Assembly: GCA_900169975.1 (NCBI GenBank) | Contig: LT827119.1 | Coordinates: forward strand, 1 to 64,000 | Length of the DNA: 64,000 bases | Origin: Pseudoflavonifractor sp. Marseille-P3106 | GTDB taxonomy: Bacteria; Bacillota; Clostridia; Oscillospirales; Oscillospiraceae | Reading direction: 5' to 3' | In this document: in pieces, positions 10,279-62,403 of the stretch | How the letters are laid out: each line of letters opens with the position of its first letter | Position numbering within the stretch: the first letter of the stretch is position 1 | The notes under the pieces: generated by a model | Told to the model about the DNA's origin: nothing | Seen by the model: the letters and a program-made list of their open reading frames with translations, nothing else | Database searches by the model: none | Position numbers and translations under genes: made by a program

Positions 10279-10310
10279 GACGGCGGTGCAGCATAAGCCG
10301 CACTGCCGTC
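10279..10310. other. GC-rich hairpin on the left side of repeat R1 copy A
   Basis: Near-perfect 14-bp stem with loop ATAA (GACGGCGGTGCAGC against GCCGCACTGCCGTC). It is clearly related in sequence to the hairpin on the other side of the R1 repeat (10516-10529 plus 12215-12228), suggesting one ancestral hairpin present on both sides of the repeat. Confidence 0.7.
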
Positions 10311-10311
10311 C

Positions 10312-10515
10312 GAGACTGTCGAAAAAGTGGCTGCGCCACTTTTTCGGGCAGGATGCAGCCCGTCGCGCGCACGCATGGTCCGCCGAAGGCGGACCATGCG
10401 CACACTGACGGGCTGAGAGGTGTTTTCTGCCACGTACACGCCGCGGCAGGAAACGGATCCCACCTCTTTCGCGCCTGCGGGCGCGAAACTCTGCGAGGCT
10501 TTTTCCACAAGCTGA
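10312..10515 (+). repeat. 204-bp structured repeat R1, copy A
   Basis: Starts GAGACTGTCGAAAAAG and ends GCTTTTTCCACAAGCTGA, giving short imperfect terminal inverted repeats (TGTCGAAAAAG). Internal hairpins: GAAAAAGTGGC against GCCACTTTTTC, a long one around CATGGTCCGCC-gaa-GGCGGACCATG closed by GCCCGTC/GACGGGC, and CGCGCC/GGCGCG near the end. Copy B (50069-50272) has the same length and very high identity; a shortened variant is at 62271-62359. It encodes no transposase, so it looks like a MITE-type or structured-RNA repeat mobilised in trans. An open minus-strand frame through it is shared by both copies but is not supported as a gene. Confidence 0.85.
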
Positions 10516-10532
10516 GACGGCGGCGCGGCATC
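10516..10532. other. Left half of a hairpin split by the IS element, plus target duplication ATC
   Basis: GACGGCGGCGCGGC (10516-10529) followed by ATC (10530-10532). The complementary arm GCCGCGCCGCCGTC lies at 12215-12228 on the far side of the IS, preceded by the second ATC copy (12211-12213). With the IS removed the two arms form a perfect 14-bp hairpin with loop ATCC, probably the former terminator of the minus-strand thiolase gene. Confidence 0.85.
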
Positions 10533-10598
10533 TGATATGCTCCCTTTCAAGTAGACAGTGGAAAAAATAAAACTGTCGAAACGGAGGGAGCAATTATC

Positions 10599-11282
10599 AT
10601 GAGCTTAAAAGGCAAAATACCACCGGAGCTAAAGATTCAGGCCGTAGAGGATTATCAGGCAACTCGCAAGGGTTCTACTGAGATAATCAAGGAATTAGGG
10701 ATTCGCAGAAGCACCTTTCAATCCTGGGTGCGGAAATATCAGATGGAGGGTCGCAGCGGGCTGTATCCGAAAAAGAAGTTTACCAGTTACTCATCATCAC
10801 TCAAACTGGCGGCCGTGGAGGACTATTTAAACGGAGGAGGGTCGCTGGACGCCGTGTGCCGCAAATACGGGATTTCCTCCCATGCGGTTTTACAGCAATG
10901 GATTACGTTGTATAATCAAGGCCATAGGGATTTCAAGACACGCAGAGCACGGGAGGAAACAGATATGGCCGAGAAAGAAAAATTATCGCAGGAGGAAAAG
11001 CTGCAGGCAGTACTATACTGCTTAGAACATCAACTGGACTACCGGCAGACCAGCGAGCAGTACAAGATCACCTATCAGCAGATGTATAGCTGGCTCAAAA
11101 AATATCAAGAGAAGTGAGAAGCCGGGTTGCTTGACCGCCGGGGCAAACGCCGCCCTCTTTCCGAATACAGCGAGGAGGAAAAAGCTGCAGCAAAGCTGCG
11201 GCAGCTGGAGGCGGAAAACAGAAGGCTTCAAATGGAGAACGATTTCTTAAAAAAATTGAACGAACTCGAGGGGAGGCGGTAA
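10599..11282 (+). pseudogene. IS150-type orfA (HTH protein) interrupted by an in-frame TGA
   Basis: The open part (10599-11114) encodes 172 residues with two winged HTH units of the IS150 OrfA/InsJ type (GSTEIIKELGIRRSTFQSWV and SLDAVCRKYGISSHAVLQQW) and the start of a third (YRQTSEQYKITYQQMYSWLKKY). A TGA at 11115-11117 stops it after KYQEK. The same frame then continues without a stop to TAA at 11282 and encodes exactly what the family has next: EAGLLDRRGKRR and a leucine-zipper-like stretch LRQLEAENRRLQMENDFLKK. A single G-to-T change (GGA to TGA) explains the break. The start has a good GGAGGGAG ribosome site. Confidence 0.88.
11249..11255 (+). promoter_or_regulatory. Likely -1 programmed frameshift site of the IS
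   Basis: Heptamer A-AAA-AAA in the orfA frame (TTA AAA AAA TTG) just before orfA ends. Slipping by -1 joins orfA directly to the orfB frame, the usual way the IS3 family makes the OrfAB transposase. Downstream stimulatory structure was not verified. Confidence 0.75.
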
Positions 11283-12169
11283 GCAGGCTCACACGTCGCA
11301 GGAAGGTCTATGAGGCGATCCATACGCTTCATCGGGAAAAAGGATATGAAATTGCATCGTTATGCGCGTTATCCGGGATTCCCCGCTGTTCTTACTACAA
11401 ATGGCTTCACCGGGAAGAAAGTGCCTCAGAAAAAGAAAATACCCTCTTGCTGGAAGAGATCATCCGTTTGTACAGCGAAGTAAAAGGCATCTACGGTTAT
11501 CGCCGTATGACGCTGAATGTGAACAGCCGGCTCAAAAGGAACTACAACCACAAACGGATTTACCGCCTGATGAAAAGCGTGCACATGCAGGCCGTGATAC
11601 GCCGAAAGAAGAAGCATTATGTCATGTTGGGACCGCGTATTACCGCTGAAAACGTATTGAACAGAGCATTTACGGCAAATAGGCCCAATGAAAAATGGCT
11701 GACAGATGTCACAGAATTCAAACTTCTCAACGGGAAGAAAGCATACCTGAGTGCGATCCTTGATCTCCATGACAAAAGCATCGTTGCGTATGCACTGGGC
11801 CAATCCAACAACAATCAGCTTGTTTTTGACACCTTTGACAGAGCGGTGAGAGCCAACCCCAACGCCCATCCTCTGTTTCACAGTGACAGAGGCTACCAAT
11901 ACACCAACCGGCAGTTCAAAGCAAAGCTGGACGGTATCCGTGCAACGCAGAGTATGTCCCGGCCCGGCCGCTGCATCGACAACGGCCCTATGGAGGGCTT
12001 CTGGGGGATTCTCAAATCTGAAATGTACTACCTCCAGCAATTTCATACCTTTGAGGAATTGAAGAAAGCCATCGACGAATACATGGACTTTTACAATACA
12101 AGGCGGCTTCAAGCTAAGTTAAAGGGCCTGGCTCCCCTTGCTTACAGGAACCAGACCCTCGTGGCGTAA
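11255..12169 (+). CDS. IS150-type orfB, DDE integrase-like transposase
   Basis: About 304 residues from the frameshift region; the first in-frame ATG is at 11447, but conserved sequence (RRRKVYEAIHTLHREKGYEI, GIPRCSYYKWLHRE) lies upstream, so expression by frameshift from orfA is expected. An HTH_21-like region (IYGYRRMTLNVN) precedes the integrase core. The DDE residues are visible: Asp in WLTDVTEF, Asp in FHSDRGYQY, and Glu in NGPMEGFWGILKSE. OrfB alone is intact. Because orfA has a stop upstream of the slip site, full OrfAB can form only by readthrough of that TGA. Confidence 0.9.
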   Translation: MERTRGEAVSRLTRRRKVYEAIHTLHREKGYEIASLCALSGIPRCSYYKWLHREESASEKENTLLLEEIIRLYSEVKGIYGYRRMTLNVNSRLKRNYNHKRIYRLMKSVHMQAVIRRKKKHYVMLGPRITAENVLNRAFTANRPNEKWLTDVTEFKLLNGKKAYLSAILDLHDKSIVAYALGQSNNNQLVFDTFDRAVRANPNAHPLFHSDRGYQYTNRQFKAKLDGIRATQSMSRPGRCIDNGPMEGFWGILKSEMYYLQQFHTFEELKKAIDEYMDFYNTRRLQAKLKGLAPLAYRNQTLVA

Positions 12170-12253
12170 TCTTTCTTTTTTTACCTGTCTACTTGACAGG
12201 GGGCGGTTCAATCCGCCGCGCCGCCGTCCGGTTTTCCGTTCAGATATCTGTAC

Positions 12254-49262: not shown

Positions 49263-49597
49263 GGCGGCGGGTGACCTACCGCCCCAGCAAGGCCAGCGGG
49301 GTGTTCGGCGGCGTGGTGGGTGGGATTTTTGTTCTCATCGGCCTCTTTGTGGCCATCCCGACCTTTGGAGCTTTCGGCATCCTGTGGACGCTGATCGCCG
49401 TAGGCATCACGGGGATGAATCTCTATCAGGCCTTCGGGAAGGGATATGTCGGTCCCAAGATCGACATCGAGGACGACCATGAGGCCGGGGAGGATCCCGA
49501 GGCGCGGCTGAAAAAGCTCCAGGGCCTCTATGACCAGCGGCTCATCACCACTGAGGAGTTTGAGGAAAAGCGGAAGGAAATTCTCAAAGAGCTATGA
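49259..49597 (+). CDS. SHOCT-like small membrane protein 2 (112 aa)
   Basis: Two hydrophobic helices (about 16-33 and 38-54: [14 protein letters not shown]-like and [18 protein letters not shown]) followed by an acidic linker and a C-terminal SHOCT helix pair [26 protein letters not shown], closely similar to the hairpins of the preceding gene. The ATG at 49259 overlaps the upstream stop (ATGA), and its own stop overlaps rnhA. The two SHOCT proteins probably interact at the membrane; function unknown. Confidence 0.8.
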
Positions 49598-50034
49598 AAA
49601 CTGTCACCATCTACACCGACGGAGCCTGCTCCGGAAACCCCGGCCCAGGCGGCTGGGGCGCCATTCTCCGGTACGGGGAGTTTGAAAAGGAGCTCTCCGG
49701 CGGCGAGGGGCACACCACCAACAACCGCATGGAGCTCACCGGCGTCATCACTGCGCTGGAGGCCCTGAAGGAGCCCTGCGCGGTGGAGCTCTACTCCGAT
49801 TCCAAGTACGTCATCGACGCCCTCCAAAAGGGATGGGCCAAGGGCTGGAAGGCCCGGGGCTGGATCAAATCCGATCAAAAACCGGCGCTCAACCCTGATC
49901 TGTGGGAGCGGCTGCTGGAGCTGTGCGATTATCACACCGTGAATCTGCACTGGGTGAAGGGGCACGCGGAGAACCGGTACAACAACCGCTGCGACGAGCT
50001 GGCGGTGGCCCAGAGCCGGAAATTTAAAAAATAA
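49594..50034 (+). CDS. rnhA: Ribonuclease HI
   Basis: Predicted 146 residues. Complete DEDD set: Asp9 ([17 protein letters not shown]), Glu47 (NNRMELTG), Asp69 (LYSDSKYV), Asp134 (NNRCDELA). The basic handle [14 protein letters not shown] is present as in E. coli RNase HI. Degrades RNA in RNA-DNA hybrids. The start overlaps the preceding gene by 4 nt. Confidence 0.96.
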
Positions 50035-50037
50035 AAG

Positions 50038-50068
50038 AAGGATGCCGCCCCGACGGGGCGGCATCCTT
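50038..50068. terminator. Terminator-type hairpin after rnhA, left copy
   Basis: Perfect 14-bp stem AAGGATGCCGCCCC with loop GAC. It lies directly at the left end of repeat R1 copy B; the reverse-complement copy of the whole hairpin lies at 50272-50302. No T-run follows this copy on the plus strand. Confidence 0.8.
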
Positions 50069-50272
50069 GAGACTGTCGAAAAAGTGGCTTTGCCACTTTT
50101 TCGAGCAGGATGCAGCCCGTCGCGCGCACGTATGGTCCGCCGAAGGCGGACCATACGCACACTTACGGGCTGAGATGTGTTTTCTGCCACGTACACGCCG
50201 CGGCAGAAAACGGATCCCACCTCTTTCGCGCCTGCGGGCGCGAAACTCTGTGAGGCTTTTTCGACAAGCTGA
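50069..50272 (+). repeat. 204-bp structured repeat R1, copy B
   Basis: Same length and nearly the same sequence as copy A (10312-10515), from GAGACTGTCGAAAAAG to CTTTTTCGACAAGCTGA, with TGTCGAAAAAG / CTTTTTCGACA terminal inverted repeats intact here. Differences from copy A include paired changes in the CATGGTCCGCC hairpin (CGTATGG...CCATACG against CGCATGG...CCATGCG), which preserve base pairing. It is inserted between two copies of the rnhA terminator hairpin. Confidence 0.88.
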
Positions 50273-50302
50273 AGGATGCCGCCCCGTCGGGGCGGCATCC
50301 TT
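50272..50302 (+). terminator. Terminator-type hairpin after rnhA, right copy
   Basis: Same 14-bp stem as the left copy, loop GTC, followed on the plus strand by CTTTTTCCC, so this copy is the functional-looking rnhA terminator. Shares one base with the end of repeat R1. Confidence 0.8.
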
Positions 50303-50338
50303 CTTTTTCCCTTAAAACGTGAGCTGCGGGGGGTTGTC

Positions 50339-62212: not shown

Positions 62213-62270
62213 GGGAAAGGCGGCGAGCGTGGGGGAAAATGTCCGCAAAGATCCACATCAATGTGGATCT

Positions 62271-62359
62271 GAGACGGTCGAAAAAGTGGCGCAGCCACTT
62301 TTTCGAGATGGATGGCGGGCAGGCGGCCGGAAAAGGCAGCGGCCTTTTGGACAGCTTGA
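62271..62359 (+). repeat. Short variant (89 bp) of repeat R1, copy C
   Basis: Starts GAGACGGTCGAAAAAGTGGC with the same first hairpin (AAAAAGTGGC-gca-GCCACTTTTT) as copies A and B, then the central part is replaced by unrelated GC-rich sequence, ending CCTTTTGGACAGCTTGA, similar to their right end. Flanked on the left by AGATCCACAT/ATGTGGATCT (62249-62270) and on the right by the hairpin CCGGCGGCC/GGCCGCCGG (62365-62385), which may be the xdhC terminator. The whole 62103-62403 gap contains no gene. Confidence 0.75.
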
Positions 62360-62403
62360 GATACCCGGCGGCCACTGGCCGCCGGATATCCCCATTTCCA
62401 CAT

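Follow-up and report, generated by a model that had tools for sequence, protein, structure and literature searches.

A 204-bp structured repeat of Oscillospirales flanked by duplicated terminator hairpins, probably a miniature element mobilised by an IS1182 subgroup

Several mobile elements that insert into stem-loops have been described. The EFAR repeats of Enterococcus faecalis are structured miniature elements of about 170 bp which, like the repeat described here (R1), are found in stem-loops; they insert into stem-loops of 24–37 bp, the target hairpin is mostly lost, and we know of no link between them and the IS1182 family. Members of the IS1182 family have a size range of about 1.3–2 kb, and direct repeats of 0 to 60 bp are recorded for the family in ISfinder; whole-hairpin cases may be among them. 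Insertion sequences (IS) that enter REP palindromes also use palindromic targets, which are REP sequences, whereas the targets of R1 are alike in structure only (PMC1525189, available text). In the available portions of two further reports, palindrome targeting by some IS1182 members is cited (PMC5678879, PMC4923244). As described there, IS1272 and TnSha1 of staphylococci resemble the present elements in belonging to the IS1182 family, in using stem-loop targets, often terminators, without a sequence consensus, and in having 16-bp ends, but they delete or replace the hairpin without duplication, whereas R1 and its IS duplicate the whole hairpin. In the same portions, IS1272 replaces or deletes its stem-loop target, whole-hairpin duplication figures as the hypothetical pathway b, where 5'-foot joining may duplicate the entire stem-loop (PMC5678879), and partial deletion of target hairpins is reported (PMC4923244). 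The duplication outcome, only a drawn model in the available text of PMC5678879, is common here. A literature search revealed no recognised description of whole-terminator duplications beyond that text, and absence from print is not claimed. Stem-loop replacement of the IS1272 type was considered for R1 and rejected, the target hairpin being duplicated rather than deleted.

The window analysed was a stretch of 64,000 nucleotides of Pseudoflavonifractor sp. Marseille-P3106 (contig LT827119.1), and all its features are given on the + strand. It contained two full copies of R1, copy A at 10312-10515 (ends uncertain by about 3 bp) and copy B at 50069-50272. Their coordinates and equal length of 204 bp had been correctly given in an earlier note made from the sequence alone, and the two copies were 95% identical. 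The short terminal inverted repeats noticed there were present, but their length had been understated and the real repeats were longer (GAGACTGTCGAAAAAG / CTTTTTCGACAAGCTGA, with CTTTTTCCACAAGCTGA instead in copy A). A transposase gene was absent from R1, for which 204 bp is too short. Copy B, with a covarying structured core at 50109-50260 (10352-10503 in copy A), was located 3' of an ORF (49594-50034) which, from its sequence, we take to be rnhA. Its left terminator hairpin (50038-50068) and its right one (50272-50302), which retained the T-run, were 31 bp each and had an identical stem, as had been claimed, with reverse-complementary loops (GAC/GTC). The left hairpin of copy A (10279-10310) was a diverged direct repeat of the right one, a resemblance that was also borne out (score 12 between the left flank and the left arm of the right hairpin, against a 99% control value of 10). 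This right hairpin was interrupted, and consisted of a left arm (10516-10529), ATC, an IS3-family insertion sequence in the loop (10533-12210; NF033516, 284 bits, cut-off 160), ATC, and a right arm (12215-12228). The ends of the IS3-family element and its 3-bp ATC duplication were read by eye, and its insertion is a later, separate event. A third element with ends of the R1 type, about 90 bp long and lacking the core, could be located by eye at 62271-62360; the hairpins beside it (62249-62271 and 62360-62390, also by eye) differed from each other.

The flanks of R1 were evaluated in a larger copy set, in which 232 profile matches yielded 121 full copies, 105 of them non-redundant and 102 with 60 bp on either side, most found through a scan demanding an intact right end. 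In 80 of the 102 copies, the flanks shared a direct repeat that scored above the 99% quantile of mismatched pairs; these copies were distributed over 35 of at most 39 assemblies, as some records may stand for the same genome. The best left-right local match had a median score of 23 compared to 6 for randomly paired flanks, and 55% of the copies scored above the random maximum of 21.5 (random 99% value, 10). The duplication had a median length of 28 nt, reached at least 20 nt in 75 of the 80 repeat-bearing copies, and was completely identical over the aligned stretch in 32 of them. These flank repeats were typically entire terminator hairpins whose sequence varied between loci, in agreement with the claim of the earlier note that the hairpin is local to its site and that insertion duplicates a whole terminator, which is not a standard MITE footprint. 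The opposite case, namely most copies lacking hairpin pairs, did not apply to full-length copies.

With the shuffled 95% level as threshold, hairpins were detected on the left of 91, on the right of 85, and on both sides of 79 of the 102 copies, almost always no more than 3 bp away from R1. The 8 nt 3' of the hairpin contained on average more T on the right (4.2 compared to 2.4 on the left), while A before the hairpin was more frequent on the left (4.3 compared to 2.6), as would be expected of two copies derived from a single bidirectional terminator. Loops could be classified in 70 pairs, the remainder being below the hairpin or repeat threshold: 39 were identical, 12 nearer to direct, 11 ties, 5 exact reverse complements, copy B among them, and 3 nearer to the reverse complement. 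The inversions (5 exact and 3 nearer) were taken as later flipping and not as part of the insertion mechanism. In diverged pairs, e.g., L108 and L158, pairing was preserved through compensating changes, as judged by eye. A matching hairpin pair was lacking in 22 of the 102 R1 copies and in 7 of the 20 complete IS elements described below; recombination or decay is assumed to account for both. According to longest-ORF calls, probably blurred by shadow ORFs, the neighbouring ORFs pointed at R1 from either side in 43 of 91 cases.

Orthologous sites without R1 were also compared. The R1 site at C13:107963 was aligned with 12 genomes of the same genus, seven of which (G001, G006, G008, G009, G010, G013, and G014) had both flanking genes adjacent on one locus; all seven had, by eye, a single hairpin and no R1. 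In G004 a further gene separated the flanks, which were 1.1 kb apart, and R1 was absent; in the remaining four genomes the two flanks were not on one locus. None of 15 orthologues of the rnhA site of copy B carried R1 downstream of rnhA; six had a single hairpin 3' of the gene (G005, G006, G007, G010, G012, and G013, with the downstream gene also syntenic in G013), and nine had no comparable hairpin. The other finding that would have spoken against whole-terminator duplication, namely relatives with two hairpins but no R1, was contradicted by the single hairpins in all seven genomes at the first site and in six of the 15 orthologues at the second. These R1-free sites are not identical empty sites because the hairpin sequences have diverged. 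Downstream of rnhA at L227 (G003:C8) and L229 (G004:C122), a related inserted repeat was found next to a partial duplicate of the rnhA 3'-end, of up to about 78 bp; it may be a further element that makes long target duplications.

The autonomous partner was sought among IS1182-family transposases, a family not named in the earlier note. A PF13751 search of 18 R1-bearing genomes gave two matches. The host genome contained two IS1182-type transposases (PF13751), 28–29% identical to the query; their elements had other ends (GGGGCTGTTGACAAAG for the copy on C20) and neither showed a hairpin duplication, and both were rejected as R1 partners. The cognate subgroup was not found in the host genome, where only a distant IS1182 subgroup was present. 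MITEs can outlive their autonomous partner. In each of G118, G168, and G319, the cognate-type IS and core copies occurred together. Starting from a relative in G026, the search was widened to the family, with matches in 81 of 300 genomes at E 0.001 when weak and partial ones are counted, and to the order, with 15 of 394 genomes at E 1e-60. Five of five tested transposases passed the IS1182 model NF033551 (377–402 bits, cut-off 270), and the domains detected in the IS1182-type transposases were PF13751, PF05598, and PF01609.

Twenty complete IS elements of 1496–1738 bp could be read, each with a transposase gene and terminal inverted repeats at both ends. Their ends were of the type CAGnCTGTCGAAAAA, with variants that included CAGTTTGTCAAAAAA (L197) and CAGACTGAAGACAAA (L344), and the ends of R1 were nearly identical to them (15 of 16 bases against the end of L335). 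A hairpin was located directly at both ends in 19 of the 20 (L197-L201, L203, L334-L341, L343, L344, L347, L349, and L350), and L195 had one on the right and none on the left. The footprint of R1 was found in 13 of the 20, with the same hairpin of 20–39 bp at both ends: 12 duplications were exact (31, 30, 29, 34, 28, 20, 23, 30, 29, 27, 39, and 30 bp; 0.70–0.97 self-complementary), and the thirteenth pair, at L198, had an inverted loop. The two end hairpins were unlike each other in L200, L203, L335, L337, L341, and L344, as recombination between copies would give. Elements of which a single end was visible (L194, L196, L202, L204, and L207-L209), fragments (L205, L206, L210, L217, L219-L223, L345, and L348), and repeats of one place (L075 = L195, L333 = L198, and L342 = L199) were not counted among the 20. 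Eight copies from other IS1182 subgroups (L073, L074, L212, L213, L215, L216, L218, and L346) revealed no hairpin repeat within 400 bp of the gene, and the transposase tree placed the hairpin-duplicating elements outside the clade of L211-L213, L215, L216, and L218.

R1 is therefore very probably a non-autonomous element (MITE) mobilised in trans by a terminator-targeting IS1182 subgroup, with the whole hairpin as its target duplication. The DDE transposase of this subgroup would recognise ends of the type (C/G)AGnCTGTCGAAAAA and would choose its target by structure and not by sequence, namely the palindrome of an intrinsic terminator. The duplication coincides with the hairpin and its length tracks that of the hairpin, which suggests that the feet of the folded target determine where the two strand transfers take place. 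The target may be extruded as a cruciform and attacked at its 5' feet; strand transfer at both feet followed by gap filling would then leave the whole hairpin (about 20–39 bp) as the duplication. The right copy would retain the T-run and the left copy the A-run. Transcripts from either side would traverse R1 before reaching a working terminator, and the insertion would be mild. The duplicated-terminator reading holds for full-length elements with intact ends.

These copies provide natural, replicated evidence for structure-guided transposition with a whole hairpin as target duplication, and naming the enzyme group makes hairpin recognition by a DDE transposase testable. They also suggest a route by which an element can settle at the ends of genes while termination is preserved, and a dispersed covarying core that matches no Rfam family has been brought to light.

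The R1 core is about 150 nt long. In an alignment of 37 of 41 diverse representatives chosen from 114 copies, 94.5% of the cells could pair and 29 of the 37 predicted pairs showed two-sided change, which confirmed the pair-preserving changes noticed earlier in the internal hairpins. The covariation score was 0.381 compared to 0.136 for shuffled alignments and was reached by none of 500 shuffles, and slid structures scored 0.109 at most. In helix 6 (columns 197-215), which is doubtful, none of the pairs changed on both sides. When 197 genomes sampled from the order were searched with a covariance model of the core, 24 were matched, the host among them, in families f1, f3, f7, and f13, with one weak match each in f15 and f19; G118 and G168 contained 50 and 49 matches, some of them partial. 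Such covariation and spread would also be expected if R1 were chiefly a functional non-coding RNA that has spread to gene 3' ends and is kept for its product, with mobility secondary, but this explanation is considered unlikely, as its abundance and patchy distribution look selfish and the plus strand showed no G-U excess. The mismatches over 165 core copies comprised 75 G-T and 101 A-C cells (binomial p 0.06, the copies not being independent), 27 of the G-T cells coming from a single core pair (columns 70-95), and the terminal DNA hairpin had a similar ratio (13 G-T compared to 22 A-C). More G-T would be expected of a plus-strand RNA, which these wobble counts do not favour, although they are not decisive; the data fit a DNA structure or a minus-strand RNA. 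Also against a functional RNA, nothing in the whole window reached the gathering score of an Rfam family. A permissive Rfam scan of 50030-50310 gave sub-threshold matches only.

The core also occurred without R1 ends, which the earlier note had not foreseen. In four genomes of f7 (G066, G089, G356, and G398), all 10 copies read (L293-L302) had neither R1 ends nor a hairpin pair and were preceded, by eye, by a long hairpin, almost perfect and different in sequence from copy to copy; this may be another way of spreading. Five core copies in G116 had other ends, GTGTCGAA...TTCGACAC on the left and GACAGnCTGA on the right, between duplicated terminators. The core looks modular because it was found without R1 ends in f7 and with other ends in G116. 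The flank repeat, common in full-length copies, was found in only a minority of copies picked by the core. Among 40 copies picked by the core alone in eleven genomes, 11 exceeded the 99% control, all of them hairpins (G116, 5/5; G101, 5/5; G232, 1/7; others 0/23, including 0/10 in f7). Among 29 core copies in G118, G168, and G319, seven exceeded the 95% control, two of these repeats not being palindromic; some of the G118 copies are also in the set of 40. Core elements with direct repeats of 19 bp and 16 bp that were not palindromic were observed at L368 (G319) and L376 (G118), respectively.

A structured core with conserved loops, its occurrence without R1-type ends in those 10 f7 copies, and the five exactly inverted loops, as template switching would give, could be accommodated by a REP/HUH-type or RNA-templated element that is not moved by a DDE transposase, in which single-stranded hairpins pair with terminators and the flanks are copied by template switching. 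The probability of such an element is judged to be low, since the inverted repeats of R1 are nearly those of IS1182 elements with the same footprint and the loops were identical in 39 of 70 pairs. That the two hairpins are merely independent terminators of two convergent genes with R1 between them is hardly credible, for although terminators are often bidirectional and paired and some pairs differ (L017, L029, and L147), the pairs are locus-specific direct repeats far above mismatched flanks, 32 of 80 identical, most full copies already contradict it, and orthologous loci have a single hairpin.

With R1 read as a MITE of the IS1182 subgroup, the core is a conserved structured passenger. It is possible, though doubtful on balance, that the core is an independent, long-conserved structured module, acting as a single-stranded DNA signal or a minus-strand RNA, which has been taken up by several IS1182-type end pairs and is delivered by terminator-duplicating insertion to the 3' untranslated region of the gene on either side while the terminators of both genes are kept.

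The host genome contained seven full R1 copies, 90–100% identical to the query, in addition to fragments, and the flank repeat was retained at five of the seven. The full copies at C16:224295 (L003) and C20:73645 (L007) had a hairpin on the right side only; at L003 the stop codon of the upstream reading frame is apparently supplied by the R1 end, as read by eye. A search of the host genome and 98 relatives gave R1 matches, many partial, in 18 of the 98, and relatives of R1 were also present in other Oscillospirales. A right-end pattern scan of genome contigs returned at least 117 stretches, and the taxa among the matches listed included Flavonifractor, Papillibacter, Oscillibacter, Dysosmobacter, Pseudoflavonifractor, uncultured Oscillospiraceae, and others. 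When a plasmid collection was searched with R1, one record was matched, and only partially, from Vescimonas fastidiosa (NZ_AP023416.1, 861 kb), with 33 partial R1 matches in this single replicon.
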